This document shows positions 361-58,613 of a stretch of 64,000 nt of DNA, piece by piece. Numbering within the stretch: the first letter of the stretch is position 1; every line of letters begins with the position of its first letter. This stretch comes from Tribonema minus (lineage: Eukaryota > Sar > Xanthophyceae > Tribonematales > Tribonemataceae): contig JAFCMP010000013.1 in NCBI GenBank assembly GCA_017506865.1, positions 620,001 to 684,000 of the forward strand, in the 5' to 3' direction. Made by a program: the position numbers and the translations under genes. The notes beneath the pieces are model-generated. The model was not told the origin of the DNA. It saw only the letters and a list, made by a program, of their open reading frames with translations, and searched no databases.

Positions 361-1299
361 TGCGCAGGTCAGCATGCAGGGTCACCCTGTATGCTAGAAG
401 TAACTGTTGCGCTGACACAAACCCTATCATGCTCCGAAAAGGCACAATCACGTACGTCTCCGTCTCTATGCGCAGGTGAGTCTATTGTCGTAATGAATCT
501 TGTGCGTTGAAAAGTTAACATCATGTGCGCCGCTGCCTCGTGCGCAGGTCAGCTTTCATGCGATCATGCTTGAACAATTCAGACAATGCGCACTGCCGTC
601 TCCACCCACCGGTCACCATACTGGGTCAACTTCATCCTATTCATGCTGCAAAGAGTCAAAATTATGAACGCCTCCGCCTCCATGCGCAGGTCGGCATGCC
701 GGCGTTTGTGCGCGACTGCATCATGCTTGCGATTAAATGCATCAGTCTAGCTGTGAGAATCCCGGACTCATTTAGGTTGTCCTCTTCTTGCGCAGATCAG
801 CAGCACCAGGTTCGCCCCAATCCTACCATGCCTTGAGAACTCAAAGTCACATAGAAGTATGCCGCCGCCTCCACACGCAGGTCAGCATGCCTGCCGGGTC
901 AACCTAAATCCTGTCCATGCTGTGACGACTCAAAATCATACGCTGCCGTTTTTGTGCGCAGGTCAGCATGCCGTCAAGGTCGTTCAGTCGCATCAGTCTA
1001 GCTATGAGACCTCCAAATTTATGTGCGCTGCGGACTCCATGCGCAGATCAGTGTGCCAGGTTCACCGTTTCCCTAACCCCCTAACCCTAACCCTAACTCC
1101 GCGCGCAGGTCAGCATGCCGGCGTTCGTGCGCGACTGCGTAACACACGCGTCAAATGCATCAGTAGCTATGATAATTGCAATTTGATGTACGCCGCCGGC
1201 TTCATGCGCAGATCAGCACGTCAGGTCCACCCTAATCCTACGATGCTATGGAAACGTGATAATCATGTACTTCTACCCCTCCTTGAACTGCGTGCGCAG
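361..1299 (+). repeat. array of decayed acceptor-edge copies of the 1300 exon
   Basis: A motif of the form TGCGCAGGTCAGCATGCC recurs at about 361, 541, 683, 876, 952, 1030, 1103 and 1203, and finally at the exon used at 1300. It is the acceptor (GCAG) plus the first bases of that exon. The copies near 683 and 1103 extend about 35 bases into the exon. The spacers also resemble one another (a CCTAATCCTA stretch, then TCAAAATCATG). This reads as serial tandem duplication of a segment spanning the intron 3' end. A short CCCTAA tract interrupts it near 1075-1096. Confidence 0.85.
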
Positions 1300-4200
1300 G
1301 TCAGCATGCCGGCGTTCGTGCGCGACTGCGTGATGCACGCGTACGCCTGCGACTGCATCCTGGAGGACAAGTGCATACTCCTGCAGTCATCGTCCATTGA
1401 CGAGTGGCCGGTGAGTCATTGCTCTGAGTCATGAGTCGCAAGTCATGTTTCATGCGTACGCCTGCGACTGCATCCTGGAGGACAAGTGCATACTGCTGCA
1501 GTCCTCGTCCATTGACGAGTGGCCGGTGAGTCATCGCTCCGCATCACGAGTCGCGAGTCACGAGCCGTGTCGCGACCAGCAAGTCTTTTCGATCTCATGA
1601 AGGGATTGCCTCGGGATCGCCACTCACAAGTCATTTCAGAAGTGAGTTCGATCCGGGAGCAAGCGTCGCGCAGCGCGTTTGCCCACGGATGGCAAGCGGT
1701 CGCGTGATAACACTCGCGCGCTCATCGCCTACTTGTTGGCTGTCGGCGCTGAGCAGTGCTGCAATGCGCTATCGCGTGCGTTCTGGTTGACCATTGCGGC
1801 AGCGTCGACCGAGAGGGTAACGGGTAGGGTTAGGATAGGGTCAGGGTGAGGGTTTGGGTTAGAATCAGGGTTAGGTGTGTGTGTGACCCCCCAGTGTTGG
1901 AGTTAGGTGAGAGTTAGGTCGCAACGACTGCAGAGCATCATGCGCGAGTTCGTCGTGCCACATGTGAGGTTCGCGCGCACACTCAGGGAGCAGGACGCTC
2001 GATATGTAGGCACTACTGCCGAGTGCTGACAACGCGGTCCTTGATGTCGTGTTTGCGGCGTTTTTGCGCAGGGCGTTGAACTGCCTGAGGCCAAGACGAC
2101 GTGGACGAAGGACAGAATGGTCATACACGCCATCAAGGTGCGCGTAATAAATCGTTGCGCGTAACAGTCGGAACACGTGCTTACGAGCATGCACACGAAA
2201 GTAGCGAAATCAGTGTGCTCATTTGGAAGCATTCGAGGAAAGGAACGTGAAGATGAAATAGAAACAAATGAAGATGCAATAGAAACAATGGTCATGCACG
2301 CCATCAAGGTGGGCGTAATAATACACTCAAGGACAAAGCCTCATCAATCGCTCTTCAACAAAGTGGTCAAAGCTAGGTTTGGTACTCCTGTAGCTCGATA
2401 CTCCCCTGCGGTGCTCATGTACCCTGCTGTCTGCAGGTGGATCACTTCGCATTCTGCATCTCATCCTGCTCAACACTGCCTTGGTTCTGGCACTTGTCAG
2501 GCAAGAGTAGAGAGACCAGTCCAAATCTTGTATTTTAGAACATGAATGGTTGTGTCATATTTTATGTCTTCTCTTTTGGCATCAACAGTCGCGAATAGAG
2601 ATGCTGTCGTCAATGACTCAATCCCTTTACTTAAAAACTTACTTTCATTGTGTCTTCTTGTTTGGCACTAACAGGCGCGAATAGAGATGTTGTCGCCCAC
2701 GAGCGCTGGCACGTCCATGGTGGCCAACATTGACCCCAAGGCGCCGCTACCGCAGTCCCTCATCAACTTCATAATGAAGAAGGCGGCAGGCGTGGTGAGT
2801 CATGAGTCATGAGTCATGCGGTCGGTCTCTCATCAACTTCATCATGAAGAAGGCGGCGGGCGTGGTGAGTCGTGAGTCATTAGTCATGAGTCGTGCTGCG
2901 ACTGGGACAGTGGCAGAGCTGCGGAAACCGGCGCCAGGACAGGGCTGTCACGTCTGATGTACTTAAAAGTGTTGTTGAATCAGCTACTTCAAAGTACGTT
3001 GGTTATTGGGTCATGTCGCTTTTGACAAAGGCGCTTCTGTAGGCAGTCCAGGGTGTGGCGAGAGCAGCCTGTGTTTGCAAGCATGAGAGCTCTGAGTCTG
3101 AAAGCGCTCCCGATTCGGATCGCATCATACTGTGTAGCTTGATTCCAACGGTCGTCGTGCTACATCTCGCCCTCAGTCGAGAGCATGGTCTCAATACCTC
3201 AACCATAAGCAATACGCGTGAAGTACCTGCAACGATAAGGCCCAATGGCATGTAACAGCTCCAGGTGACGTCGCCTCATTGACGCCGGTGCGCGCATTTG
3301 CCCTTGCTCGACCGGAGCGACAGCTATGCATCAAACTTAACTATCAACTGCGCAAGGCGCCAACGCAGCCTCCTCTGCATGTGCCCCAAAGGCGCGGCGT
3401 TTAGGCGGAGCCATGGGTATATATTAAACTGCATGATCACCGTGCATACACATGTATCAACGACGCAAGGCGTCAACGTAGCCTCCTCTGCGTAGGCCCA
3501 AAGGCGCAGCATTTAGCCGGAGCGATGGCTATGTATCAAGCTACACTGTCACCGTATCGCAAGGCGACAACGCAGTCTCCTCTCCACATGATCAGAAGCA
3601 CGGCGGCGGCGTGTCAGTGGTCCATTTGCCCTTAGGGTTAGGGTTAGGGTTAGGGCTAGGGTTAGGTCTGAATCGCGCCGTCTGTTTGCGACGTTCCGTT
3701 CCACGCGCGTCGCGCGCAAGGCGGCCTCGTGTGCTCGATCATGAAGTGCGTTCTCCCTGTTGCGAGCGACATTGCAATTTGCAGCCAGCTCTTGATGCGC
3801 GGGGTGCCTGCCGCCGTTGTGTTGCTTGTCATAGCTTGCTTTGACCTCCACTCTGTTCACCTCTTTTCGTTTGCGACTGTTGTTATGCAGATGCTTTACT
3901 TCCTGGTCCGGGCGGCCTCAAAGATCCCGAACGACGTCAACAACGCGCACAGGAGATCCATTGCCAGGTGCGCACATGATGTGCCTCATTGCCATGCTCT
4001 GTAGCGATGGCGCACCGTAATTACACAGGGATTATGCCTGGCCTCGAAGATCCCGAACGACGTCAACAGCGCGCACAGGAGATCCATTGCCAGGTGCGTA
4101 TACGAGTATGCCTCGTCGCCGTGCTCTGTAGCGATGGCGCAGCGTGATAATGCAGGGGGTGCTGCACTGCATTCTTGAAGTGATCCTTACTAGAAGCACT

Positions 4201-7200
4201 TGAAGTTTGGGCATCTCCTTTTAAAAAACACCGCGGGATGCGTGCCCCATGTTTTGTGTGTCCGTCTCAAAGCCTAGGTGTTGTTGGGACTTGACCCACT
4301 GCGACACGGCCGCATAAATTGCAACCAATCCGTTCTTGAAACAGTTGTTGTACAGACAAGTCCAGCGCCGAGCGCTACTGCTAGTAGACATGCAGTAGGC
4401 ATTGCGCAGCGCGCATTCGTCGTGATGCCATGCGTGGCTGTTTCTCCATTTACCCCTGTTCTTTGACTTCTGTCGCCCCGCGCTCTGTCTTTAGGGGTCT
4501 TCGCTCTCCACGGCATGCACCTGGGGGGACTGCAATGCTTTCGGTCGCACTAGTACACTGCTTACACTGCGCGTAACACTGCGTGAAAGCGACGCATGAT
4601 GAGTACATGACAACAGATGACAAGCAGCATTGCATCAGTCACTGGATATGCCAGCCATCACACACGGCTATCTCTTTCTTGCCGTGCAGGGATGCTGAAT
4701 TTTACCGAGATTGGATGGTTCCTAAGGCAAGTTCAACTTGGATGAAACAAGTGCTTGCCAGTTTGATTTACAATCGTGCAGCTTATTGCGTGCACATCGG
4801 AGCTGCTTCAGTGTACAAGAGAGAGCAACGTCCAGGAATGGCTCACAGAGTCTGTGTCTGTAGCGTGTGGCACCGTGCCATGTTCTTGAAGTTGAAGATG
4901 GTGCTTAGGTGCGGTTTGGGCAATGCGAGTCGTGTAGGTTGCTCGTCGCCTCAGTGTCTTCAGTGTTGGTGCACTTTGCGCTCGAAGCCACAGCCACTTT
5001 CAAAGCATGCGACAGCGATCCAGTCGCGCAGCTAGCGGCGTCCTATCAGGGTCACTTGAGATGGTTGTTTCTTTCCATTGCAATGTAGGCATCACGCAGA
5101 TTTCAACTAGCCAGCGTGAGTAGCACATGAGCTTGCCTTGCATGCTGAACCACGTCAACAGGCATGCGCCCACAGCAGTTTCCGGCCGTTCCGCAGCTTA
5201 CATTTGTATCCCTTTTGTATCTGCCAGAAAAACAAAAAATGACCAATGGCAGCAGCAGCGGCAACCATGGTTCGTGTGGTGGAAAGCTTTTGGTTAGGGT
5301 TAGGGTTATGATTAGGGTTAGGGTTAGGCTAACCACACCTTGTCACCTAGAGCTCTACGATTAATACGTTTCCAAAGAGCCCTCACTTCATGCTGCACGC
5401 GTCATGAGATGTCAACCGTACTTGCACACGTGGAGCAGTTCACAACCATCTGCCGCTGCAGGCATGTCAAACTGTTCTGGAAACACTGCATTGCTCACTG
5501 CACCGCCACACGCACGACGCTCACGTGGGTGCCCCACTTCAACGCTGATGTTGCATGCGGCTGCTGCGTCTGCTGCTGGCAAGAGCAATCGTTCAATGTC
5601 CAGTCCGTGTGTAACCGCCATGTCCCCTGCAGCAGTGTCCGATCATCAATCTGAAGCTTGTACAGCAAAGGCGGCACGCCCGCTGAACCCCCCCCCCCCC
5701 CCCCCACCCCTCACCCCCCCCCCCGCCCTCTTTCCTGCAGTTTCAGTACTTTTGCAGGGTCATGGGCTGGGAGTTTCAGATGCCAGTGGCGGTTCTAGAA
5801 AGGTAAGTCCCCCTGCAGTGATGGCTCTGCCTGGCATGTCACCAACTGAACTTGCAGAATGTGCCCCACCGCTCAGCCAGATCTGGCCACGCGTCAATAA
5901 ACCACTGCTAAACGAAGGTTGCTGCAACTTCTGCAAGTGCGAGCCACGGTAATGCCAGTCTGGTGTCAGCGGCATACGGCAGCGCTCATCCGCATTGTGC
6001 GCACATACATCAAACTTCAACTGTGACAGCAACCTATGCCAGCCCATCGCAAGGCCGTGCACGCCCCCCGTAGTTTCAAGGCGAGCGCTGCGCTCGTATC
6101 GAATACCTACATGCCCACGCTCTGCCTCTCTTCCGTCAAGTGCCTGCACGCATGTGGCAGCCCATATTATACTCTGAGCTACTCGGAGCTGCTGCCGTCA
6201 CCATTCAGCGTACTGCCGTATCACGGTGGCACGTGCCTGCAGTGGCGCGCACATGATGTTGAACCATGTAGCGAGTTTGTGATTTTGAGCAGATTTTGCC
6301 GTTGACAAACGCGTCACAGTAATGAGCTGCTCTCCGTGATCGTGCGTACCAGCGGGTGGTATGCCACTGCTGCAGCTGTGCGCACTGTGTGAGTCGCCAG
6401 TGCCAATCAACAGGTGTTGCACACTGCTGCTGCTTAATCTTCCAGTCATCGTTGCAGCAACTGCACATCGCGCCGCCCCCCGCACACATCATCACAGCAA
6501 TCACCAACACGCACAATCGCATACACTTCGCAGAACCTCAACCTGTACACACACCCCATCGTTCGCGAAGCGCTGCACGCCCCATGTCCCTGCGCATGAA
6601 ATTCATGAAGTTCACGATCATGAACGTGAACTCGTGCCGCGCGCGCGCAGCATGCCGGCGCCGCCATTCATGTCCCCCGCCAGCGAATCCGCCGCGGACG
6701 CCTTCTCCGCGTCGCACGCGCCGCCGCCGCTGCGCGCTGCTGCCGCCGCCGCTGCCGGCAGCGGCGCGCTCAGCGACGGCAGCGGCATGCGCAGCGCCGG
6801 CAGCGCCGCCCCCGCTGCCAGGGCCAAGCGCAAGGGCCTGCGCCGCCGCCTCACGGGGATCCTGCGCTCGCGGCGCGGCAGCGGCGGCAGCGGCAGCGGC
6901 GCTGCGGGCTCCGCAATTGCAAGTGCGTCAACTTCAAGAGCGACGCTCGTGCGCGATCCCGGCAGCTACTCGAGCCCGTCACCAGAGCCGCGCGCGGCTG
7001 CGGCGGCGGCGGCGGCCGCTGCGGCAGCGGCGAAGGGGGTGGGGGTGAATGGGGGTGCGGGGGGGGGCGGGGGGGTGGGAGAGGGGGGGGCGCGCCCCCA
7101 CCATGCGCAGCATCACCATCACCATCACCACCACCATTCCAGGCGGTCACGGACGCACGAGCTCGCACTGGGACAGGGCGCGGCGGTGAGTCTCTTCGCG

Positions 7201-10200
7201 GATGTATGCAGTTTCGACCCTGCATCATGATGTTGTGAGATGGCTCTGCGGGGATCGAGAGAAAGACTCCTTGCATGCGCGACGGAAGATGTGTGCTAGC
7301 AGGATCAATCGTCATGACATTGACTTACAGGGCACGTCAGTGCTCCGGGCAGGTGCGCCCGGAGCACATTCCAGGCGGTCACGAACGCACGATCTCGTGC
7401 AGGGGCAGGGCGCGGCGGTGAGTTGGTTCTGTCACGGTTTTGTGCGGTCTCGATGCAACTGCCCTTCGGACGGGGTCTCTGAGGACCTGCGACGAGACTT
7501 CTTCATTCGCCATAAGACTGGAATGAAAGGTACGTATGGACTTGTATTTATGCGCTTGTAAAACTTGTTTCAGCATTTGAGGGTGCACGGCCGCCCCTGC
7601 CCGGAGCACTGACTCGCGCTGTTGCGGTTGACGCACTCGAGCCGTGCGCGCTGCAGCTCTTAGGGTTACGGTTAGGGTTAGGTAACTCAAAGTCTCCCGC
7701 GTGAACCCTTCATTCGGGCTTTAGTCGCGGCTCGAGCTGATGCGGGTCGATACAATATGCAATTACTCATTCTCAAAGCCAGTGTCGTACGTGTACTTGA
7801 CGGAGCGGGATAGCGGTGAACTTGACATAGCGGCAATGGCAAGTATGCATCAATTCAGCATCATACCTGCACACCGGTAGTCGCAGTGCTCAACACGCGG
7901 TCCCCTCTTTGCCACGTCGTTGCATGCATGCTAGGGAGCCGGCAGCAGGCGCTGGGTCAGTGACCTACTGTCAGCATATTATATCATGCTGCATATGTAG
8001 TCATAGTGCTCAACATGCTATCCTGCCTTCGCCGCATCCTTGCGTGTGCCCCAGGAAACTGGCAGGCGCTGGGTCAGCGACGTACTGTCAGCATACCTAC
8101 ATACCTGAAGTCACAGTGCTGACCACACCGTTCTTGCTTTGCCGCCTGCTTGCGTGTGCCCCAGGGGACCGGCAGGCGCTGGGTCAGTGACTTACAAGTC
8201 ATCATCATGGCGGCAGGCGTGTGGTTTGCATGTGGCAGCGCTCGTCTAGTCGCGTGGGCAACGGGCAGCGGCAGCAGCAGTAGCGACGAAAGGGACAGTG
8301 GCAGCAGTGACGATCCACAAGAGTCACAACCAGGTGTGTTGTGAGGTACTGTGCCAGAATCATGCACGTACTTCAACATCATTCTTGCTTGAGGGGCGAA
8401 GAACCTTGTACAGTATAGAGTCATATGCAGAGTATGCACAGTATACAGCGCATGTGCCTATGTAGGTTGCCTGATCACTGAACGAGGTTCGAGTTCAAGT
8501 TGAGACCTGACCCCCTCACTGCCTGCTCCGTCATTTTAGTGACCGAGGTTGCAGCTGGGGTTGAGCCCTGACCCTGCCGAGCATCGCCATGTATTTCATG
8601 ACCAAGGTTGAAGGTGAAGTTGATACCTGACCCGACAGTTTGCACGCATCAGCACCAAGCAGCAGACCGTGCCGGCGCGGACACTGCACGACATTTGACA
8701 ACAGGCAGCGCGGCCGCGCACAGCATGCCATAACTGAAGTTGAAGTTGAGACCTGAGCAGACAGTGCGACACAAAGCAGCAGACCGCGATGGCGCAGACA
8801 GTAGAAAGTTGACAATAGGACGCGCAGCCGTGCGCGCGACGCGTTGACCGGGGCGCAACGGCGCCCGCGCGCGCACACGACAGCGCAGAGAGTCTGACAA
8901 GGCCCACAGATACCTGCTGCGCACTGCACGTTTGGACATGGAACAATTCTCTCTCTATGGGGTAGGCTTAGCGCTACATATGCGCATGCAGGCCACTGTA
9001 TGGTCGACGGTGTGGTGCAGTGGGCGCAAGACTCGCTGCGTACATGACAAGTCAGTGACTTGGAGTCACTCATTACATGCACTGTCATTTTTCTTTCAAA
9101 AAAGTTAAAACAGTTCATGCGCGTCTCTGCAAAGTGGGCGGTGTGGTCCAGTAGGCGCTGCTGGCGGGCAGACTCTCTGCATGTAGCGCGAGTCACTCAC
9201 AGCCGTGAGTCACTCACAGCCACGAGTCACTCACATCCATGATCCACTCACAGTCACGAGTCGCTCACAGCCGCGAGTCACTCAGATGAGCACTGCCTCG
9301 CTTGCCGGCCCCCCCATGCAGGTCACTGGGTAGTGGCGACTGTCGCACAGTGGGCGATTCTGGCGGTAGGACTCGCCCTGCTGTGGCGCGCCGCACGGCG
9401 CGACCGAGGGCAACCCAGCAACGCTCAGGTGAGATCTCTCAACTTCAATGCATGAAATTGAACTTCAACTCTTGCCCGTGTCTTGGGGCAGCCAAGACGC
9501 CACTGCACGAATGCCTGCAGTACCGCGTGCTGATGCGTTTCTGTGGCGCGGGCGGTGCAGCACCTGTGAAATGCACATGCACATCGTGCGCAAGTCACGC
9601 CTGAATTATGGCGCCCATGCACCACACCGAGATGCTCATAAAGCATCGTCATTGCTTGCTGCTCACGATAGGGGGAGCAGCGGCCGCGAGGCACGGGCCG
9701 ACTGCTCTTTTTCGCCGGGCTGGTCGCGGCCGCAGTTCAAGTGACACAGGTAAATGAGTGCGCACCGCGCCATACATTTGCGTCAACGCAAGCCTGTACT
9801 GCGGAAAGAGAGCATGTCTCCGCCACATTCATCTTCGCTCGGTTGTTTGGGCTGAGTACATGCGTGCGGCTGAAAGTGGCGTTGAGAGGGACTTTGAAAG
9901 CCTGTTGAAGTTTTCATTGAAACCCTGTTGAAGTTTATGAGCTCATCTGCATTTAGCTGTCTAGAGCAGTCTGCTGCGGTCGCACATGGCAGCGGTGACA
10001 ATATGAACACTGTTGTCGCATTGTCTTGCCTAAGCTGGGGGCGCGCATGATTGATGGTGCTCCCTCAATGCTATCTATATCATGGTCTGCGGCCAGGGTC
10101 GAACCCTAACCTAAACCTGACTCCTAAGCGTAGCCCTAACCCTAACACCAATGCGACTGTGAGCGGCTGGTCTTTTGGGAAAGGGACTCCTGAAGTGTTT

Positions 10201-47300: not shown

Positions 47301-50300
47301 GGCGCTGAGGCGCGGACACGGTGGCAGCGATCAGCAGCAGCGGCAGCGCTCAGTTGTGACATTGGTGACAGCGGCAGCGGCAGCAGCAGCGCTCACTGAT
47401 GGCGATTTGTGACCGCAACAGCGCCACTGTTGGCCGTCGATCTGCACCACCGTTGCAGAAATCAGCACGGTGCGTGACCGCATCAGCGCCGCAGCTGACG
47501 GCCGCCCTGCACCACCGCTGTAGAAATGAGCGCACAGGCGGCGCAGTCCTCCGACCCTACCGTAATCCAGGCCGAAGCGCTGGAAGTTCAAGTGGAATAC
47601 GAAGTTCAATGGAATGTGGCCGTACCACAGGTCGGCCTGGCCGAGAATGAGTCGCCTGTGCGCGTTTCTCGGAGGGCTGGCACTGGGAGGGTTTTGGTCG
47701 GGGCCTCGGCTGCAGGGTTGGGGGTCGGGAGTAAGGGGTGAAACACGGCCATGCTGCACACGCGCGCAGGGGTCAGAAGCCTGACCCCCACCCGCCAGCC
47801 CTCTGAGAAATGCGCGCGCGCGACTCATTGTGTGGCCGGGCCGACCTGGTGGATGGCCGCGTTGAACTTGAACTTCAGCCTGACTTCAACCGTGGCCACT
47901 GACACCCAGCCCTGACCCCGCGGCCCACTGCCCTTGAAGCACGCGAACGCGACTCACCATTGGCCAGGCAGACCTGGTGCAAGTTCGCGCAACAGCCCTA
48001 ATCTTAAACCTACCCCCCCCCCCCCCATTTCTGCCCCCTGTACCCTAGCCCTGACCCCCCGGCCCACTGCCCTGAAGGCGCACGAACGGTAATCACCAGT
48101 GGCCAGGCCGACCTGAAGCATAGCCACAAGTACTTGAACTTTGCATTCCACCCAAACTTCCACTGCCCTGGATGTGCGCGAACACAACAGGCCGACCTGG
48201 TGTATGGCCCGTACCACCCCAAATCTTAAAAGTAACCCCCCTGACCCCATTCCTGCCCCCCCAAACCTTGCCGTAACCCCCCAACCCACTGCCCTGGAAG
48301 CGCGCGGACGCGACTCACCCTTGGCCAGGCCGACCTGGTGCATGGCCGCGTTGAGAAAGTCCGTGATGGCCTGCGGCGTGCAGCCCGGCGGCACGTTGCC
48401 GATGAACAGCTCCAGCTGCGCAGCAAGGGGGGCGGGGGGGGGCGGTGGGGGGGCAGCAGGGGGAGCAGACCCAGAGTCAGACTCTGCGGATGGTGAGTCT
48501 CAGCGCTGCACAGTCGGCGGCGAGTGCCGACACACTGATGGGAGTTCCATGAAGCACGCGTGTATGGCTAGGGGGCGGGTGCTGCGGACAGTGAAGGTGG
48601 ACCAGGAGGCAGTGCTACAACCGCAGCGTGGCCCCATCCAACGTCAAGGCAAGTCACTTTGCAACCATGGTGCTCTCTACCATCACCACATTGCGAGCCA
48701 CAGATGCTGCAGACTATAAGAGCTGCTGTTAAGGACCCTATCACTGGCATTAAACGGAGCACATCTGGTACCAATGCTTGCAACCGCAAGTCGCACAGGG
48801 TCGTCAATGGTGCGGTCAGCCTTTCGGCGCAGCTCAACGGCTCGATCAATGAAGTGTGTAATGCCTGACAGTAACCTCAGTGTCAGGTTTCAGCACTGCA
48901 CACCAGATCGTAACCCTACTATAGCATTAAAGTCGTAACCCTAGCCCTACTGCAGCAGCAACGCTCGCCACACCTCGTACTCGGGGGGCGCAGCGGCGTT
49001 GCAGCTACGCTGCTGCTGCCGCGGCGGGTGCCGCCGCCGCTGCTGCTGCTGCTGACAGCAGCGGCCTCGCCATCACAGGCGCGACGCGGGTGCTTCCAGC
49101 ACATGCCGTCACGCGCTGACATGTGCATGGCGACGTAGAACAATCGGGTACAGAACATGCACATGCGAGCGAGCGAAGAGGGGGGGGGCGACGGCAATGC
49201 GGGCGGGCGGGGGAGGGGGGGGAGGAGGGGGGGAGATGCGGAGGACACGAGCGGTAGGAGGGGAACGAAGACGGCGAAGGGAGGGCGGAAAGGGCGGGGG
49301 GGCGGAAGGGGGGGCGGGCGGGGGGGGGGAGCACGCATTAGTGCTGAGCCCTTACATAAGTGGACGTCACGAACCGTGCATGCTGGCAGCTGCTTCTGAC
49401 CGTCCTGACCGCGTGGTCGCGGACGTACACATTTGTACCGCTGAGTGCGAGCATGCTACGGTGGGGCGACACTTGCCGGGAGCACAGCCTGCCTGCGCCT
49501 TAGTAGAAGTTGCAACTGACGGGCGCTCCAGCCTCGTGTCTGTCTACTACAAGCCTTAGCCAAGGCCCAGCCTCACCGCAGCCCTGACGCTAATTTGCGT
49601 CCTACCCTGCGTCGACGATCGGCCATGGCATCCCAAGCTCTTGAAGCGCAGCCGCTGTCCTCTCAGTTCGCACCACGACAGCCGCAATCTGCCTTGAGCC
49701 TGATTCTCGGCTACCTCCTGCAACCCCCCAGGGCACCGCCCCCCCTCCCCCCCCCCCCCCCCCCCCCCCGCGCCCCTCCTCTTGCCCAATAGCACCGACC
49801 TAATTGAACTTCAGTGGGCGCCCCCCCCCTGCACGCAAGCGGCCGCTGACAATGCACTCACGCACACGGCAGCCGCGCCGCCGACTGTACCTGCGTCTTC
49901 AGCACGGGGTTCGCCATGGCAGCCCCCAGCCCCCCCGGCATCGCCCCCGGCCCGTAGGGGGACATGCCCATCAGGCCCCCCCCCCCCATGGGGTTCCCCA
50001 TGGGCGCACCGCCACCTCCCATGATGGCATGCCCCCCCGTCGTGATGGTCGTGCGGTTGGCGAGCGTGGGGGGGAGGGCGGTGATGCCCTGAGCGATGAG
50101 GCCCGCTGCCACGGTGGGCGGCAGGCCCAGCAGCTCCTTGGGGAGGTTCACGTTGGCGAGCTGCGGCGGGATGGGGGGGGGGGCGAAGCGCGACTTCCTG
50201 CGAACCGACGAGCGCGACGGTGTAAGCAGCCGGGGGGGGGGGGGGTGAGTGATCGCAGGGCACGAGGGGGGGGGGGGGGGGGGGAGCAGCTATGGGGCTT

Positions 50301-53300
50301 GAGAGAGAGGCGCAATGTGTGTGCGCCGGTTACAGAGAGCAGTGACGTTACGGCAGCTCTGTGCCAGTACGTTGTGTGTGATGTCGCTTGTGAACGTGTG
50401 CCAGTGCAATCAGTGGACGGGCATTTCAGTCGGGATATTATGCGCGCATCGGACCAAGAGGGCTGCGACAGTGATCTCTGGCGCGACAGTCGGATGTGAT
50501 CACGTCGTTGCTTGAACTTCCGCTTGGAGACTTCACACGCTTGCGGCGCATAATGTACTGGTGCCACCAGTTTCAGGCCGAGGTGTTTCAGAACCTGTGC
50601 TTGCTGGCACGACAGCAGAGATTTTGACATAGCAGAAGCAGCTGCATCGGGGCTTGCATGTTCCACATCTGACCCATTTGGCATGCTTGCTAGGTGCATG
50701 ACATGTCGTTGCACATCTACGCTGTACCTGACTCAATCCCTCCCCCTGCCTCTGCCTTAAAGGGGGATGCTGAATGACCCCAAGCATTGACGCACGTAGT
50801 GGTGCAAGTTGAACGCCACTCGAGATTTCTGCTCCAGCTGACTTGCATCAAATCCTGACAGCAGATGCCAAATCCTGAAGCGTTTGGTGCCAACCAGCAG
50901 TGTTTGTCACCAACTCAAGCTACATAGGACTATCGCATTTCATTGCCGACCAGAAAGCGTCATGGTCACCATGCTAAAACTATCACATTTCAATACTTTG
51001 GCATCAACATGACAACTCTTAATGTACGCACCTGGGGCTGCGGCTCCTGCTGCGGCTGCGGCGACGCTCTCTGCATCAGAAACAAAGACAATACACAGCG
51101 CATGGTGAGAAGAGCACTGCAATGAGTGCGCAGAGCGTATCTAGATGCTGGCAGAGCCAGTTTGGTGCCAGATGTCAAGGGGGGGAGAGGCGGGAGGGGA
51201 CGGGGGGACAAATCAAAATATCTCGAGCCTGCCACAACTGTCAAGTCCCTTCACGTCATGCACAAACAAATATGACGGAGCAAGCAAGCGAGCATGATAG
51301 AGTACGGCGGGCGCACGCCATATGAAGTTGCAGACAACAGCGACTCGCCGTGCACGACCAGCATCAAAAGTCACAGTTGACGTTCAGGTTTAACTTCAAG
51401 TTGAAATTGAACAAATCCAGGGCCTTGCCTGCTGTCCTCCCTCCTCCTGCTGCCGCGGCTCCTGCTGCGGCTGCGGTGCGATGAGCGGCGCGAGTCGCGG
51501 TCCCTGTGCCTGCACATGCGCGCATGCGTACAAGCCACCGCGTAGTTCCGTGAGCGCTGCAATGCATTGGCGCTTGAGAAAGCAGCGCCGGGCATGCATA
51601 CGCGTGCGAGGCCATGTACAATTTCAATGAGCACTGTGGCCGTGCATGCATACAGATACACACAATTTCATTATGTTTGCTTCGCACTGACAAACGATTG
51701 CGGGTGTTTGCTGCCGGACACGGGCAGGTTCCTGAGGAGTGCAGGTTGAGCACTGATGACACCTGCATCATCGGGCTGTTGGCTGTAACTGACGACCTCG
51801 CGAGTATGAGCACACATGAAGTCGGCTACAGCAGCAGAAGACGAGTCGTGTACAGCTAGAGCGGGATATGGTGTAGACTGTTAACCGGCAATCACTTTTG
51901 ATGCTGGCCAGCGCTTACAGCTGTGCATACCTGCTGACATGGTGTCATGTGCACGCAACAGTGCTCAAAGTGCTTACAGCTGTGCATACCTGCTGACATG
52001 GTGTCATGTGCACGCAACAGTGCTCAAATTGCACTGAGCCTCTACAGCAATGAGCATGTTATATCTACAGCCCTTACTGGACGACCGTCAAAGAGCGTAT
52101 TGCTCTGCACTGCAACGCGCAACTGCGACACAGCCACGGCTTACATATCTGATGTCGACTGCATCAATGTCATCCGCATTTCAGCAATCAACTGCTGCCG
52201 CTGCAGGCAACACAGGTTTCTGCCGCTGCAGGCAACACAGGTTTAGGCCCGGCTCCATGACATGCTTGCAGCTGACAGGTGGCGAGCTTATGAGCGCTTT
52301 GACTCGAGCTGAGAGCCTGCTTGCTCGCAGCACAGCCGCCAATACTAAATGCGTCAGGGACTGTCAAGACAGCAGAGGACACATGACTCCCAACAAACTG
52401 CAGTGCGTAGCACTGCTCTAAATAACTTAAACTTGCCGTTGGTGATAGCGGCATCAGGTGACATTGCAAGATTTGACGCTGTTGTACATGTATTGTTGGA
52501 ATAACCCTGTCAGACTGCGGTCCCCATCAGCGGCTGCCGAGCTGCAAGCATGAGCATGATGCGCCAGCGGCACTACGCGTCACTGCATGAGCCGCAGTGT
52601 GAACTCAGCTCACCCGCCTGCATCATAGTCGCAATCCCTGCCGCAGCGGCCGCTGCGCCGTGACCACAAAGCGCCAGCGATACTAGCCACCGCAGCGTTA
52701 CAACATACACCATCACTGAACTCGTATCACCTGTCGTGGTCGCGGTCCCTGTCGCGGCGGCTGCTGTGGCGCGAGCGCGAGCGCGAGCGCGACCGCTTGC
52801 GCCCCGACTCCCTCTCCTTCTCCCTGCCGTCCTTGCCCTTCTCCTTGTCGGCGTCCGCGCCATCTTTATCCTTGTCCTTGTCCTTATCGCTGCTGCCGCG
52901 CCTGTGATCACGCTCCTTGTCCCTGTCCCCCCTGTCCCCCCTGTCGCGGTGCCTGTCGCGGCCCCCCTTGTCCCCGTCCCTCTCACGCTCCGCGCTGCGC
53001 CTCTCCTTCCGCTTCTCCTTGCCCCCATCCCCCTTCTCCCCATCCTTGTCGCCCGCTTCATTCTTGTCACGCTTGTCGCCTTCGTCGTCGCCGTCGGAGC
53101 GTTCGCGCTTCGTGCCGCGCGCGCTGCGGCCGGTGTCGCTCTTCGGCGATTTCAGCCCCTCCTTGCCGGACTCTGCTTCTTTGGGTTCCTTGTCTGCTTC
53201 TTTGGGCTCCTTGTCTGCTTCTTTGGGCTCCTTTTCTGCTTCTTTGGGCTCCTTGTCGCCGGCGCCGTTCTCGGCATCTGGTTTCGCGGCAACGTCGTTG

Positions 53301-54414
53301 TCGTCGGAGGCGTCGTCCTTTTTCACGGTGAGAAACACGTTGCCCATCTGCACATCACAGAATACAGACGAGTGGAATTAGATCTTGCGCGGGCAGTGCA
53401 GAGGATGAGAGTGCCTGCGCTCGCATGCAAAGTGTTGAGTGGTCGTCGTCAGTGCACAGGGCTAGCATTTCTGGTGAGTGCAACAGCCAACAGATTTCTG
53501 TATTGCATCACTCATGCCGCTCTACCCACAACGCTCAAGATCCCTGAATTCAGTTGCTGAGGACGCCGCCTTGGAATGGCCAGGCTTCATGTTGCCGCTG
53601 CAACCGCTATGAGGCCTCCATGACCAGGTCGAGGCTGTTGATGCACCACCTTCTCGTTGAACACAGGTGTGGGTCAAAATCACTCAAGGCAGACAAGAAA
53701 AGGTCAAACATTTACGTGCCTTCAATGGGTGGATGATGCTGCAGCAGCAGAAGGCCTAGCGCATTCCCACCAAACTCAATGCAACCTTGTTGGTGGCTGT
53801 ACTCCAGCTCTGAAACACAGCTCTGAGTTGTGCCGCTGCTGGGGGTGCTGCGCAGGCAGTGTGTTCTTGCTGCTGCTCAACTTGTGAAGCTTTGACGTAG
53901 GAGCTTGCACTGCACCGGCACTAAAGCTTGAATGACTACGACTTGACATAGCTGGTGAACACACCGTCGGTGTCCCGAGGACGTCTTGTGCCTGCATGAA
54001 GCTCAACACACCCCAAGATGGCGCGGCAACACCCGACCAGGGCGCACTGGTGCCAATTTCCGTGCATGAGCGGCACTGCTTAACTAATGCAGCAGTGTAC
54101 AAACCAAAAGGGCTCCCCCCGCAATGCTGCTCTGCAAGCTGCACAAAGTCTGCCGCTAGCACTTTAAAGTCCGGACGGATGAAAACAACCTTCGTTCTCA
54201 CCTTCAGCTCGTGAAAGCCCTTCACCGCCTTTTGCGTGAGCTCGTCCGACTCATACTGGACCTTGCAGGTGGCACAGCCCGCAGTGGCGGCATCAGCATC
54301 CTCGCCGCTAATGATACTGAAGCTCTGCAGGGGGCCCACTGTCTCGAGCAAGGTGCGGATCTCCTGCACGGGCAGCTGTTCAGGCCAGCCGCTGATGGTC
54401 AGCTGCCGCGGCAT
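41345..54414 (-). CDS. U2AF2: U2AF large subunit (U2AF65)-like splicing factor with extra N-terminal RRM
   Basis: Twelve minus-strand exons: 54414-54202, 53347-52731, 51509-51429, 50197-49891, 48415-48319, 47095-46962, 46597-46475, 45554-45452, 43934-43771, 43123-42962, 42183-42064, 41437-41345 (TGA). Phases agree; 737 aa. U2AF65 binds the intron polypyrimidine tract and recruits U2 snRNP in the nucleus. Seen here: an N-terminal RRM (1-82 or so); a KEPKEAD-repeat, Lys/Asp/Arg-rich then RS-rich region (to 303); a linker starting KSRFAPPPIPPQL (U2AF ligand-motif position) with a Gly/Met-rich tract; RRM1 407-495 (LFIGNVPPGCTPQAI, GLAKAPGDP, RPSSYRGPP); a second RRM 525-615 (IFVGNVPLEA, GLTTAPGNP); and a C-terminal UHM 642-737 with EDMREECSRYG, IEIPR and an R-x-F (RTF). 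The intron after 51429 has a GC donor. Canonical U2AF65 lacks the first RRM. Confidence 0.9.
41624..41640 (+). repeat. interstitial TTAGGG tract
   Basis: Almost three TTAGGG units in the last U2AF65 intron, next to donor-edge copies of the penultimate exon. Confidence 0.85.
41680..42060 (-). repeat. U2AF2: donor-edge copies of U2AF65 exon 42183-42064
   Basis: Three or four decayed copies of the plus-strand motif CGCACCTTGGTGGCC (minus strand GGCCACCAAG|GTGCG), at about 41690, 41799, 41882 and 41966. Some extend into the codons for QYV. They lie downstream of the real donor at 42063 in transcript order. Confidence 0.85.
42225..42610. repeat. intronic tandem repeat, about 70-75 base unit
   Basis: About five copies of a unit containing GTACTTGAAGATGGAAGTGAG followed by CTGCTGTCGCGGTGAATGA and TTGACATCACA variants. 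Inside it, at about 42415-42440, lies a copy of the first 25 or so bases of U2AF65 exon 42183-42064 with its acceptor. Confidence 0.85.
42790..42876 (-). repeat. U2AF2: donor-edge copy of U2AF65 exon 43123-42962
   Basis: About 87 bases matching the 3' half of the upstream exon (VVRIGSVVNADELVDDESYQ and following). In this copy the bases at the donor position read GAG|GCATGT, not GAG|GTATGC. Confidence 0.88.
43731..43756 (-). repeat. interstitial telomeric tract (CCCTAA on plus)
   Basis: Four CCCTAA units ending 14 bases from the donor of U2AF65 exon 43934-43771. Confidence 0.9.
43990..44210 (-). repeat. U2AF2: two acceptor-edge copies of U2AF65 exon 43934-43771
   Basis: Copies at about 43993-44092 and 44140-44205 repeat the exon start (PGNPIVHVRMNARFSFLEF in the first), including the GCGCAG|CGCCC acceptor. 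In both, the sequence after the exon edge diverges into intron-like text. Confidence 0.9.
44769..44794 (-). repeat. interstitial telomeric tract (CCCTAA on plus)
   Basis: Four CCCTAA units in a U2AF65 intron. Shorter CCCTAACCCTAGG pieces follow at about 44889 and 45106. Confidence 0.9.
45150..45354 (-). repeat. U2AF2: two donor-edge copies of U2AF65 exon 45554-45452
   Basis: About 55-base copies of the exon end (LQQFLGSAMQQVGLTT with ACAG|GT) at about 45150-45204 and 45300-45354, nearly identical to each other. The spacing is 150 bases, so an exon-edge-plus-intron unit was duplicated more than once. Confidence 0.92.
46745..46769 (+). repeat. interstitial (TTAGGG)n array
   Basis: Four TTAGGG units in the U2AF65 intron between exons 47095-46962 and 46597-46475. 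Confidence 0.9.
47250..47312 (-). repeat. U2AF2: acceptor-edge copy of U2AF65 exon 47095-46962
   Basis: About 60 bases repeating the exon start (PGDPIANVRVSQKFAFAT on the minus strand, with one Ala changed) plus the CTCAG acceptor. The flanking GCGGACAC...GGCAGCGATCAGCAGCAG intron text is shared as well. Confidence 0.92.
47830..48215 (-). repeat. U2AF2: donor-edge copies of U2AF65 exon 48415-48319
   Basis: At least four copies of the plus-strand motif TTGGCCAGGCCGACCTGGTGCATGGCCG (the end of the exon and its donor) at about 47832, 47961, 48100 and 48188, spaced roughly 90-140 bases. A weaker copy lies near 47628. Each is followed by similar CCCTGACCCC-type intron text. Confidence 0.87.
51030..51075 (-). 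repeat. U2AF2: copy of part of the RS exon 51509-51429
   Basis: The minus-strand text CGCAGCCGCAGCAGGAGCCGC found in the RS-encoding exon recurs here, inside the following intron and followed by GTGCG. It is short and of low complexity, so independent origin is possible. Confidence 0.6.
51913..52029. repeat. 59-base direct tandem repeat
   Basis: Two adjacent near-identical units (CTTACAGCTGTGCATACCTG through CAACAGTGCTCAAA), period 59, in the U2AF65 intron upstream of the RS exon. Confidence 0.95.
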
Positions 54415-54577
54415 CTTTGTTGCGCTGCCGTCTATCGCCAACTCACACCGTCAGGCGCCTGGTTTGAAAGATCTGCAAATCCGCAAAAAAAAGTGATCTG
54501 TTGAGCATCATCGTACATCATTTTTTTTTAGTACTTGCGAGAGAGGAGGCATAGGCTGGAGCCGAGAGGAAGCTGCG
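54415..54577. promoter_or_regulatory. divergent intergenic spacer between U2AF65 and NDUFS7
   Basis: Only 163 bases separate the two start codons, so promoters and 5' leaders for both genes must lie here or within the first introns. It contains an A8 run and a T9 run (about 54485-54530) around CATCATCGTACATCA. No TATA box is obvious. Confidence 0.6.
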
Positions 54578-57500
54578 ATGCTGTCAATCACATCTCGTAA
54601 GTCTTCAAACCTCTGCCTGCGCGCTGCCGCGTGGTGCTGCTGTGTAGCATGTAATGTTTCACACAGCGATCCAGGTGCTGCAGCCAAACCTGACACACGG
54701 TCTGCCTTCATGCTCTTGCTGCAGGTCGCGCCTTGTGCATGCTGCAGAGTCAGGCGCCATCAGCATTGAGGGCTGCTCCTGCTGCACGGAGCATTCACTC
54801 CACTCACAGAACGGAGAGCCTCAGTCCAAGCAAGGTGAGCTCGGCTGAGAAGAGGTCTTTCCTGAACACTTTGTTCCGCTATGCGCGACTCGTGTTCGAT
54901 ACCTTGACGTGAGCTCGGTGCCGTATCGTCTGCTGTGCGAGCCCATGCGCGCTCTTGCGATTGTGCGCCGGAATGAGCATTATGCCAACTGCGTTCGATG
55001 CGCACAAAGCTCAAGTGATTTCGATCACAGGCACCTCTCCATTGATCGCCATGCCCCTCAGTAGCTGTGGACACGTTCATTTTTCACTTTGAGCTTCGTG
55101 CTTGCTGCTATTTGACTTCACTCCGAGTGCCACAAGCAAAAAAGACATACGCCAACTCCAATTTACTTACTTTGGTGACTTCAACACACCTTAATCAGGT
55201 GGAGACGCCTGACCAGCTGCTGCAAACCAAGGGGAAGGTGGAGTATGTGGTGTCAAAGGTGGACGAGCTGGTGAACTGGGCGCGGAAGGGCTCTCTCTGG
55301 CCCATGACGTTTGGGCTGGCGTGCTGCGCTGTCGAGGTGCGTTCCACACTGAAAATGGCGCAGTTGCACGCTGCATGTGCGGCATGCGCCTCATACTCAG
55401 TACGGTGCACTCAGCACCTTCATTTGAACTGATGGCTTGATGGGGGCCGCTGGACGGCTGCCTCTTGTTGGTGGCAGCTGCCGGTGTACTTCACGAGTGA
55501 CGCTCCTGCATTCACCTGCACCAGCCATGTGGCTGAATGACACCAATACTTCACATCGATGCCTGTTGCTGGAGCTAGTGAACACACACATAACAGCTGC
55601 AACATCAGCAACTGCCCGCATGCAGTTTTGCGCTTACAGTAGACATGATGTTCCATCAAAGTATCACATCAATGCCTCTTGCTGGAGCTAGTGAACACGC
55701 ACATAAAAGCTGCAACATCAGCAACTGCCCGCATGCAGTTTTGCGCTTACAGTAGACATGATGTTCCATCAAAGTATCACATCAATGCCTCTTGCTGGAG
55801 CTAGTGAACACATGTGCTGTAGCTTGTAAGATACACGGCAAGTTGTCATGGCAGACCGCAATGCGCAGCATGGCAGCCTTATGCACAGCCCACTGGCCTT
55901 GCGGCAGCTCTGTGCTCAACTCACTGATGCTGTTGCGCCAGACTGACCTCATGCCAAAACATTGGATGGGTGCGGCCACCGATGGCGGTTCCTGACCATG
56001 GCGTGCCTTTTCGCCATGGCTGCTGCTGTGAGCTGTTCAAGAGTTTCTTGAGCCTATTTACTATCATTGCAGCTTGGACAGTCTGCACAATCACATTAGA
56101 GTGTCATGCCTGTGCATGTGGGCGCTCAAAGCTCATGTGCACGGTCGTGCCTCGTCATATGTGGTGTTACATGCGAACCGTACCGTTTGATTTCTGCTGC
56201 ACGGACGATGGACACTGCAGCTGCGCCGCGCTACGGCATGAAGCAGTGTGAACACCTTCTGTTCCCAAGTCTTACTGCTTCAGGTGTACATGCTTACTCC
56301 CCGCTTATCGCTGCTGCAAAGGCGACGCGCGCGGCAGCGTGGCGCTGCAGCATGGAGCGTGTAGGCTCGTCTTCTCATCCCTCATAGAAACATATATGTA
56401 TGTACCTTCTGTGCTGATTGCTTGTACTATCATACGGTACCTGCGTGTTGATCGCCTTTTCGCAGATGGTGCCCCCGGCGGTGCCGCGCCAGACGCGAAA
56501 GCGCTCTGGTCTCGCGTCAGCCATACCTCATACATACTTACCCCTTGCCTGACTGCCGCACACAGATGATGCACGTGGCCGCTTGTGCTATGACATGGAT
56601 CTCTATGACATGGGTTTGCCATACCGCATACACATGTTTCCCTCACTGATCGCTGCTGCACACCGATGATGCACGCGGCGGCTTCGCGCTACAACATGAA
56701 GTGCGACGACATGTGGTCTCATCTGTTATACATACGTACCCCTTTGCTGATCGGTGCCGTGCACAGATGATGCACGCGGCTGCGTCGCGCTACGACATGG
56801 AGCGCTTTGGTCTCGTGTTCCGCGCGTCGCCGCGCCAGTCCGACGTCATGATCGTGGCCGGCACGCTGTGCAACAAGATGGCGCCGGCGCTGCGCAAGGT
56901 ATGCAAGTGTAACTGCGGTAACTGTCAAGCCTGCAAATGGCAATGCATATATCTGCAATAGGCTCTGACACTTGAATAATGCATTCGCGCTATCCTGGGG
57001 CTGTTGGCGTGCAGTAATCAACTTTGCACGCATGCGTGATATCTCACAGCTGCTGGTGTGCAGAAGTACATGTTCTATGCAGGTGCTAGATGATGTATGC
57101 TGATGCTGTGTGCTGAGCTGCATCATGATTGTCGGTGTGCAGCAACAGGTGTGCACGCAGCTGCTAGGTGCCCCGCCTGTACCTCCGCGCGTTGGTCATA
57201 GTCATTAGTGTAATGTGCTTCTGCCAAAGACGGTGCCAGCACGCTGTCAGCTACATGGTTATCAGGTACATGCGGTTTGACTCCTGCTGCGTGCACACTG
57301 TGAGTTGCTGCACTGACGTCCATGTCCGTTCAGATCTCTGGGGACGTGCAAAGCGCCCCATGGAATCATAGACTCTTTCTAGCAGGCAATGGTCTAGGCG
57401 CACTTTCATTGGCAGATCCCTCATCAACTGCACACTTGTGACTGACTGCTTTCTGGTACATGGTTCAAACCGGGCTTTCTTGCGCTCTACATCCAGGGAG

Positions 57501-58613
57501 AAATCATACAAAGCACCCATTGCACGGATCATACAAGTGCATGCAGGCGCTACGCAGACACTAGGTGGCATTGTCGCATGACATGTGATGCGCTGTAGTT
57601 GGGCGCGAGCTGCGCACTTCAAGGGCGCCCGCTTTGTGCAATGACGCAGTTGCTGCTGCGCAATGTCGGTGCCTACTTTGCCAGTACGGTCAAGCCTCCG
57701 TCGTCGCTGCAGGCTCGCACTGCAAATCTCTCAGAACAATACCCCAATCGACCCTTTACACACACGCGCGCATCTCATGCCCTTGCTTGTGCACGCAGTT
57801 CACGGACTCCTTGTGTCTGTGGCCTCTGCGACTCTTGTGTTGCGCAGGTGCAGGGCCTGCGTCACGTCGCTTCACTCATGCAATTCGTCCACCTCTTCTT
57901 CCCTACGGCGGTGACTTTCCTTGTGACACATGACCAGTACCGCATCCCTTTTCTCCCACAATAAGTTCAACTCTTCTTTCCTGTGGATTATGCGATTCAC
58001 GCATCGCGCAGGTATATGACCAGATGCCCGAGCCGCGGTGGGTGGTGAGCATGGGCTCCTGCGCCAACGGCGGCGGCTACTACCACTACTCATATTCCGT
58101 CGTCAAGGGCTGCGACAGGTGCGGAGCACTGCTGTGATTTGTGTGTGATGTTGCTGCAGCCTTATGTGCAGGGTCTTAAATGAAGCGCGGAGGTTTTATT
58201 TGAAGTTCACCATGCTTGTGCCTGGCGTGGTCGCGGCCTCACTTGCCTCGTACTGGGATGGCTTTGTGTGATGCATCATGATGCTGTGCGTGCTTCAGCT
58301 GCAGCCTCAGATGCACTAGGACGCGTCAGTGTAGAGCATTACAAAATGTTCGTGTGATTCACCTGCAGCGTGAAGGTGGCAGAAGCGTGCTTTCGCTGTG
58401 CGCAGCTGCCGCTTTCAGCTGCGTTTGCAACAGGCACACCATTGACTTAAGCTCGTTGCTGCCGTCCCGTGCTCCCATGACCTCAGGATTGTGCCAGTAG
58501 ACATCTACGTGCCCGGCTGCCCGCCGACCGCCGAGGCCCTGCTGTACGGCCTGCTGCAACTGCAGAAGAAGGTCAAGGGCAACCGCTCGCTGCTGCTGCG
58601 CCTACGGAAGTAG
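54578..58613 (+). CDS. NDUFS7: NADH:ubiquinone oxidoreductase PSST/20 kDa subunit (complex I)
   Basis: Six exons: 54578-54596, 54725-54834, 55199-55336, 56767-56898, 58012-58118, 58487-58613 (TAG), phases consistent, 210 aa. This is the PSST/NuoB subunit of mitochondrial complex I, which carries iron-sulphur cluster N2 next to the quinone site in the matrix arm. The N2 ligands are visible: tandem Cys 85-86 (LACCAVE), Cys 150 (MGSCANGG) and Cys 180 ([11 protein letters not shown]). Other family signatures are [33 protein letters not shown] and GTLCNKMAP. Residues 1-43 ([15 protein letters not shown]..., then [11 protein letters not shown]) are rich in Arg and Ser with no Asp and one Glu: a mitochondrial presequence. 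It exists only after splicing exon 1 to exon 2, which supports the 19-base first coding exon. Length is typical of the family. Confidence 0.96.
55552..55806. repeat. 113-base direct tandem repeat
   Basis: Two full near-identical units and the start of a third (TCACATCAATGCCTCTTGCT, then GGAGCTAGTGAACAC...), period about 113, inside the NDUFS7 intron after exon 55199-55336. Confidence 0.95.
56200..56730 (+). repeat. NDUFS7: acceptor-edge copies of NDUFS7 exon 56767-56898
   Basis: Copies of CACAG|ATGATGCACGCGGC(T/G)GC and following exon text at about 56200-56240, 56465-56520, 56560-56605 and 56660-56710. The last keeps TCGCGCTACAACATGAAG against the exon's TCGCGCTACGACATGGAG. Spacer text such as CATACATACGTACCCCTTGC is shared between units. 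All lie upstream of the used acceptor. Confidence 0.9.

Follow-up and report, generated by a model that had tools for sequence, protein, structure and literature searches.

Introns in a window of 64,000 nucleotides of nuclear DNA from the yellow-green alga Tribonema minus contain decayed copies of the neighbouring exon edge together with its splice site, raising the questions of how such copies arise and how the correct sites are still used. Twelve intervals of this kind had been named in a preliminary description, and in a blastn self-comparison all 12 overlap local direct duplications. The features recovered are the following (percentages are identities):

1286-1342, + strand, true acceptor edge (exon start 1300), from which the upstream copies 359-380, 683-726, 954-973 and 1095-1151 derive
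359-1151, + strand, decayed acceptor-edge copies (AG followed by GTCAGCATGCC...) upstream of exon 1300; blastn span 359-1312; pairs 359/1291 95%, 683/1293 91%, 954/1292 100% and 1095/1286 91%, other pairs 72-85% (blastn)
1336-1445, + strand, true donor edge of exon 1300-1410 (blastn)
1451-1560, + strand, donor-edge copy of exon 1300-1410 with GT intact and a 5 bp spacer, 91.8%
2287-2321, + strand, donor-edge copy, junction after 2137, 94.3%
2562-2609, + strand, acceptor-edge copy, junction before 2675, 85.4%
2825-2888, + strand, donor-edge copy, junction after 2794, 92.2%
4040-4157, + strand, donor-edge copy, junction after 3967, 87.3%
7367-7423, + strand, partner of 7135-7191, 89.5%; its reading as a donor edge depends on a weak exon model
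7877-8094, + strand, upstream copies of the acceptor region at 8165, 72%, weak exon model; blastn span 7859-8205
13429-13527, - strand, acceptor-edge copy of exon 13033-13338, 84%, with related copies at 13716-13818 and 13883-13921; blastn span 13250-13921, 75-89%
41881-41979, - strand, donor-edge copy, junction 42063, U2AF-like gene, 73%
42415-42601, - strand, acceptor-edge copy, junction 42183, 76%
43220-43301, - strand, acceptor-edge copy, junction 43123, 78%
43986-44270, - strand, acceptor-edge copies, junction 43934, U2AF-like gene, 76%; blastn span 43837-44270, 76-90%
45105-45347, - strand, donor-edge copies, junction 45451, U2AF-like gene, an array of 2.6 units of ~150 bp, 95%; blastn span 45105-45499, 89-95%
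46203-46337, - strand, donor-edge copy, junction 46474, 68%
47245-47372, - strand, acceptor-edge copy, junction 47095, 88%; blastn span 47036-47372
47785-47865, 47965-48125 and 48160-48209, - strand, three donor-edge copies, junction 48318, 71-78%; blastn span 47785-48354, 71-84%
51910-52032, - strand, intron-interior tandem duplication, 59 bp x 2, 97%
55551-55812, + strand, intron-interior tandem duplication of the same event type, 113 bp x 2.3, containing no exon edge, ~97%
56303-56374 and 56520-56704, + strand, two acceptor-edge copies of exon 56767, NDUFS7-like gene, 73-75%; blastn span 56198-56820, 73-79%

The intervals 7135-7423 and 7859-8205 are less sure as junctions because the local exon model is weak; at 7367-7423 the gene finder called 7403-7417 as an exon, and 7135-7191 was counted as an acceptor-edge copy.

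The occurrence of the copies was analyzed in the window (W) and five further blocks (C1a, C1b, C3, C5 and C8), all free of N bases, with a gene finder that was trained on 314 kb and predicted 228 introns in 358 kb (median exon 135 bp, median intron 735 bp). Left out of the counts were introns below 100 bp, pairs from two parts of the window (the PT-repeat stretch at 25.4-34.7 kb and the ankyrin stretch beyond 60.1 kb), genes predicted in the PT stretch, and 29 exon calls taken to be copies. The 358 kb contain 361 direct pairs and 27 inverted ones, against 0 pairs in three dinucleotide-shuffled blocks (50, 50 and 57 kb). This is not a chance level, and the copying of exon edges into introns is confirmed as a real phenomenon. 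A copy of the intron's own donor or acceptor edge occurs in 60 of 228 introns (26%) and is absent from 168. The initial statement that most or every intron is affected was therefore too strong, the window itself having 15 positive introns of 34 and three of six CCT genes having none; its genome-wide extension holds only patchily, with 12/23 introns positive in C8, 14/39 in C5 and 7/34 in C1b, but 2/35 in C3 and 0/27 in C1a.

Copies are strongly directional. Donor-edge copies lie downstream of the true site in 48 cases and upstream in 1, and acceptor-edge copies upstream in 46 and downstream in 1, making the rule originally described nearly absolute; under a looser count over the 228 introns, in which the other arm need not be intronic, copies sit on the expected side at 36 donor and 38 acceptor junctions, and on the wrong side at 3 of each. 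Of the 131 exon-derived copies in introns, 118 are on the expected side and no more than 15 bases from the expected edge, indicating that the copies are contiguous with the junction; the others are wrong-side edges (2), copies with a whole exon (2) or exon interior only (9). The pairs are thus direct, local, head-to-tail and contiguous with their source, as expected if splice junctions were crossed by tandem duplication. A spacing of 75-225 bp holds for half of the pairs detected, in a distribution truncated below ~50 bp, where the blast self-comparison may miss pairs. Some units, 12 of which were listed, are young, near-identical and adjoining or almost so, with periods of 59-423 bp. Two to six copies occur at 36 of the 74 affected junctions, in line with the proposal that duplication was repeated. 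That crossing of a junction, also part of that proposal, is essential to the process finds no support: of the sample's 273 reduced pairs, 101 are confined to introns and have no contact with an exon.

As the copies bring the neighbouring splice site into the intron, the splicing machinery must pass over strong decoys: the site is intact in 56 of 62 donor and 59 of 67 acceptor copies, at about the strength of true sites. The annotated T. minus CCT-gamma protein (P0121) is 100% identical to the exon model and contains each of three copied motifs once, skipping the copies. Aligned with three brown-algal U2AF relatives, the U2AF-like gene of the window has 25 gap positions with the copies at 45150-45328 and 1 without them. 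Strong decoys, yet absent from the annotated CCT-gamma protein, suggest exon definition.

We consider it probable that the pattern results from short, contiguous tandem duplications arising repeatedly in introns of many T. minus genes, those crossing a junction surviving through use of the outermost sites while the copies decay. The duplications would probably arise when breaks or nicks close by undergo error-prone repair. Copy size and distance fit the small copies from within 5 kb that mark repair-mediated duplication, which would also leave microhomology, filler or deletion at its breakpoints. Where the duplicated unit spans a junction, the original edge would stay with its exon and the extra edge and splice site would land inside the intron. 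With the outermost, exon-proximal sites in use the protein would be unchanged, so that junction duplications would be kept and exon-internal ones lost, and such retention would in itself yield the direction rule. Exon definition, that is pairing across the exon, would choose exactly these outermost sites, the short exons and long introns presumably allowing strong decoys to be ignored. The copies would then decay roughly neutrally. In our reading, known tandem or repair duplication has here taken an extreme form.

The excess at junctions, the slow divergence of codon positions 1 and 2 (below) and the density of duplication in introns over intergenic DNA exceed a neutral model, and uniform neutral duplication explains none of the junction excess, the codon and gap pattern, the intron bias and the contrast between genes. 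Copies were found at 74 of 456 junctions versus 145 of 2172 intron-interior points, a 2.4-fold excess (gene bootstrap 1.8-3.3; 0.8-1.2 in simulations with the same probes), and whole-sequence self-comparison gave a junction to interior ratio of 3.5 versus 1.07-1.73 simulated. The share of bases in duplicated arms is 18% in introns and 5% in intergenic DNA in W, 31% and 1% in C5, 29% and 3% in C8, and 10% and 1% in C1b, summarized as a 5-8-fold higher density in introns over these four blocks. Both patterns would be expected if duplication were junction-biased or transcription-coupled, for example through R-loops or breaks near splice sites, a process under which introns would grow from their ends; we consider this unlikely. 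Once exon sequence is excluded, duplicated intronic bases near the edges exceed those deep in the intron by factors of only ~1.4 on the donor and ~1.9 on the acceptor side; the six Pfam-anchored CCT genes give a ratio of 1.35 (15/88 versus 50/396), close to the simulated values, or 1.58 in the three affected genes; and outside these genes, missed exons or fused genes in the models may dilute the interior rate. Pairs without exon contact account, in the window, for 7.7% of the bases in introns and 5.2% of those between genes, and in C1a for 2.4% and 5.4%. The CCT genes are themselves divided, three having copies at 15 of 46 junctions and three at 0 of 42 (Fisher p 2e-5).

Intron growth by this route, as first envisaged, finds support among individual introns, where length rises with duplicated fraction (rho 0.28, p 2e-5, 228 introns), but not among genes, where mean intron length and duplicated fraction are uncorrelated (rho 0.14, p 0.44, 33 genes) and the median intron is 699 bp in genes less than 5% duplicated versus 815 bp in those more than 15% duplicated.

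Codon positions were compared in probe alignments of 130 copies, with bootstrap and neutral simulations. Positions 1 and 2 differ by 6.0%, where 8.9%, half of the intronic divergence of 17.8%, was expected. Their ratio to intronic divergence is 0.33 (bootstrap median, 0.25-0.44; direct value 0.34) versus 0.56-0.77 simulated, and the ratio of position 3 to positions 1 and 2 is 2.46 (bootstrap median, 1.89-3.36; direct value 2.43) versus 1.2-1.8. The departure is largest in donor copies (0.29 and 3.0, respectively); in acceptor copies the first ratio is also low (0.38) and the second, 2.0, is near the simulations. Gap events number 36 in 5714 exon-part columns and 127 in 4446 intronic ones; the simulated rates being 0.015-0.025 and 0.029-0.036, the exon parts hold fewer gaps than the simulations gave. 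Reduced mutability of certain codon positions was rejected, relative mutability being 0.99-1.03 by base class. A first set of long alignments, which mixed several copies, overstated the effect (0.27 and 3.0) and was superseded by the probe alignments; the gap-length count, the base-change table and a three-way comparison rest on that first set, the last without telling selection apart from other causes. A divergence peak at 12-18% had suggested a burst or an allelic origin, but much the same shape emerged from a steady-state simulation, and nothing is drawn from it.

Slow change at positions 1 and 2, most marked in donor copies, and intact sites of about true-site strength are what one would expect if copies served, now or recently, as functional alternative exon ends in some transcripts. 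We regard this as distinctly improbable. Copies are partial exons; an alternative exon should have an open frame and both splice sites, whereas 25 of 29 exon-part gaps (first alignment set) are not multiples of 3 and break the frame, and a whole exon is present in 2 of 131 copies. The 20 copies with exon-part gaps that overlap no called exon keep the same codon-position ratio (2.8), the copies are missing from the annotated CCT-gamma protein, and the intactness of sites is, by our estimate, about that predicted by 9% neutral decay. Multiples of 3 are not clearly favoured among the copy offsets (remainders 0/1/2: donor 25/17/21, acceptor 20/19/28). On the alternative-exon question the slow positions 1 and 2 point the opposite way. 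It is doubtful that the following hold jointly: duplication specific to introns and anchored at junctions, a spliceosome relying fully on exon definition and ignoring decoys of equal strength, and selection of some donor-edge copies as reserve or alternative exon ends.

Short local duplications are also known from the human genome, where Pace et al. 2009 attributed 824 events to repair, the proximal group having a median of 147 bp, with 295 of the 824 acceptors intronic and 4 donors partial exon/intron (accessible text of PMC2671141). The present case differs from that account in having 361 detectable pairs (pairs, not events) in only 358 kb and exon-derived copies nearly all contiguous with a junction. 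The similar copy size, and intronic TTAGGG arrays that may be other repair scars, are consistent with capture of nearby DNA during repair (synthesis-dependent strand annealing), inserted anywhere within a few kb and not in tandem; such free capture should often yield exon interiors or place edge copies across the exon from their expected side, seen in only 9 and 2 of the 131 copies, and seems very improbable. That two diverged haplotypes or strains were joined in tandem by the assembly is hardly credible, as the allele-like divergence (low at positions 1 and 2, high at position 3 and in introns) and the scarcity of near-identical pairs, also produced by the steady-state simulation (overlaps left in the count), are outweighed by up to six copies per junction, duplication tied to introns over intergenic DNA in most blocks, the lack of N and a single assembly match for a 195-base window stretch.

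With the tandem genomic duplication model of intron gain (Rogers 1989, as cited in the accessible text of PMC3443670 and PMC4974935) these introns share the tandem duplication of an intragenic stretch with splice-site sequence; there, as far as those texts go, introns are created, while here existing ones are enlarged. A search for such gain gave 5 matches (at least 24 bits) between a donor edge and the intron's own acceptor edge, and 0 of 228 introns in register (the duplicated-AGGT signature). Introners, as described in the accessible text of PMC9860276, likewise add intron sequence at large scale but form families across many genes, unlike the own-intron copies here. Probes from junction edges, the only parts probed, gave 130 own-intron copies versus 20 junction-crossing matches in all other introns, bearing out the earlier distinction from introner insertion. 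In tandem exon duplication with mutually exclusive splicing, exon copies adjoin the original within the gene. Whole-exon duplication was rejected here, only 2 of 131 copies having a whole exon and the rest being partial. A literature search over titles and abstract openings, with subscription journals mostly outside its reach, found no report of such an architecture, in general or in Tribonema.

Intronic local duplication in T. minus is dense enough to measure, and affected genes offer a natural experiment on spliceosome choice among near-identical sites, their true and decoy sites differing mainly by position. The pattern is also a warning to annotators: among 56 matches to the U2AF-like gene of the window, most without an organism name, none is named Tribonema, and the gene finder called as exons the 29 stretches judged to be copies.

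The window is part of a xanthophyte nuclear genome, xanthophytes being related to brown algae, and corresponds to C13:620001-684000 of an assembly of 158 Mb in 554 contigs. Genes were modelled with a purpose-written generalised hidden Markov gene finder trained on 314 kb, namely the window and five blocks of 50 kb from the same assembly (C1a, C1b, C3, C5 and C8), which were picked by contig number and position, not randomly. It was applied to 358 kb after adding six chaperonin-family (CCT) loci, picked by Pfam match (PF00118; six of about ten places used), and reached the splice consensus CAG/GTGAGT for donors and GCAG/G for acceptors. Most gene-finder exons of the six CCT genes agree closely with the independent PF00118 matches, the final two matches falling outside the model in one gene (T235b). 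The CCT-eta model on C235 (over 548 aa) and the CCT-gamma model on C5 are each 100% identical to a Tribonema minus protein (from NCBI for CCT-eta); with copies omitted, the gene-finder model of CCT-gamma differs from the annotated protein in six N-terminal and two single-junction residues. Gene models other than those of the CCT genes are predictions. Before counting, 29 called exons duplicating larger neighbours, introns shorter than 100 bp, predicted genes of the PT-rich stretch and duplication pairs within the PT and ankyrin stretches were removed, leaving 228 introns in 41 genes.

Direct duplications at most 2.5 kb apart and scoring at least 38 bits numbered 361 in 358 kb, versus 27 inverted pairs, and shuffling of three blocks yielded no direct pairs under these criteria. 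All 12 intervals that the preliminary description had cited as copies of exon edges overlap local direct duplications. Probes of up to 150 bases spanning each junction, matched to their own intron, revealed copies at 35 donor and 39 acceptor junctions, so that 60 of the 228 introns carry at least one edge copy, as do 23 of the 41 genes; 36 of the 74 affected junctions have two to six copies. Identical probes matched against all other introns pooled gave 20 junction-crossing matches, and 1086 interior probes had copies rightward in 69 cases and leftward in 76.

Copies of donor edges had been described as always lying downstream of the donor, and those of acceptor edges as always upstream of the acceptor. 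This rule is very largely borne out by the 131 exon-derived intronic copies, which comprise 48 downstream donor-edge copies, 46 upstream acceptor-edge copies and 24 on the expected side and no more than 15 bases from the expected edge, together with two wrong-side edge copies, two containing a whole exon and nine of exon interior only. This direction and contiguity are expected of tandem duplication across the junction but not of nearby DNA inserted freely. This intron architecture was not found reported in the titles and opening lines of abstracts returned by a literature search.

Observed copies were compared with simulated introns subject to uniform tandem duplication, substitution and small indels, with exons under constraint; the parameter values were our own choice. 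The junction to interior copy ratio by the probe method was 2.43 (gene bootstrap 1.8-3.3) versus 0.8-1.2 simulated. Within copies, divergence at codon positions 1+2 relative to intron was 0.33 (0.25-0.44) versus 0.56-0.77, that at position 3 relative to positions 1+2 was 2.46 (1.89-3.36) versus 1.2-1.8, and gaps in exon parts were rarer than simulated (0.0063 versus 0.015-0.025 per column). Donor copies (position 3 to 1+2, 3.0; positions 1+2 to intron, 0.29) depart further from neutrality than acceptor copies (2.0 and 0.38). The called copies may include real exons, and these would reduce divergence at positions 1+2. Also, intron-only duplication coverage is only about 1.4-1.9 fold higher near edges and the junction to interior ratio in the six CCT genes is 1.35, both of which speak against a large junction effect.

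The fraction of bases in duplicated arms was higher in introns than in intergenic DNA in the window (0.180 vs 0.053), C5 (0.308 vs 0.009), C8 (0.294 vs 0.031), C1b (0.097 vs 0.007) and C3 (0.045 vs 0.000), with the opposite pattern, at low levels, in C1a (0.024 vs 0.054). For exon-free pairs only, summed over the window, C5, C8 and C1b, a grouping made post hoc with the counts already seen, 12343 of 128188 intron bases were covered versus 704 of 36209 intergenic bases; the contrast is strong in C5 (0.125 vs 0) and C8 (0.145 vs 0) and little in the window alone (0.077 vs 0.052). Among the CCT genes, whose products function together, copies occur at 15 of the 46 junctions in three genes and at none of the 42 in the other three. 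Across 33 genes, GC3 is correlated with the duplicated fraction (rho 0.46, p 0.006). Within this one genome, introns with edge copies number 0 of 27 in C1:100001-150000 and 14 of 39 in C5:300001-357400. A cluster of imperfect inverted repeats at about 26956-29353 of the C5 block contrasts with the direct repeats found in other places.

Copied splice sites are largely intact, with GT or GC kept in 56 of 62 donors and AG in 59 of 67 acceptors. Mean scores of intact copies approach those of true sites (donors 5.6 vs 6.1, acceptors 5.2 vs 5.6; random intronic GT -0.9, random AG 0.4), and the true site is equalled or outscored by 32 of the 62 donor copies and 29 of the 67 acceptor copies. Neutral decay of about 9% predicts, by our own estimate, about 83% intact dinucleotides; intactness is thus near the neutral expectation and does not count as evidence for selection. 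Three copied motifs each occur a single time in the annotated CCT-gamma protein, and retaining the copies at window positions 45150-45328 gives a poor fit to three U2AF relatives. Because the decoys are strong but skipped, the simplest idea is that splice sites would be chosen by position across the exon. Genes and arrays of the window are as follows.

41345-54414, minus strand: U2AF large-subunit-like gene (NCBIfam U2AF_lg, E 7e-37, 127 bits; curated cut-off of 310 not reached)
55304-58571 (exons), plus strand: NDUFS7-like gene, from NuoB models
From 1300 on: gene-finder model of the gene that supplied the first examples of edge copies
165-207, 3632-3666, 5292-5328, 17972-17998, 43727-43756, 44768-44794 and 46744-46769: interstitial TTAGGG arrays

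The best database match of the U2AF-like gene is from Laminaria (55% identity), and none of its 56 matches, most of them without an organism name, named Tribonema; its published model may therefore be broken, perhaps through exon-edge copies. A 137-residue piece of the gene found from 1300 on had no Pfam match, and the gene finder extended the NDUFS7-like model onward into the ankyrin stretch. Ankyrin-type repeats (LQWARANGCPWDE) occupy 60222-61483 and 63432-63999, with 83% identity between 60222-60788 and 63432-63999, which are separated by 3.2 kb. Long, imperfect PT-rich (PTAEPTAK) coding arrays of 12-, 24- and 36-base repeats, lying in several open blocks, extend over 25678-34150. The interstitial TTAGGG arrays may be repair scars, as may the duplications; exact arrays of at least three repeats, in the window and five blocks, fall in predicted introns in 10 of 12 cases and in intergenic DNA in two.
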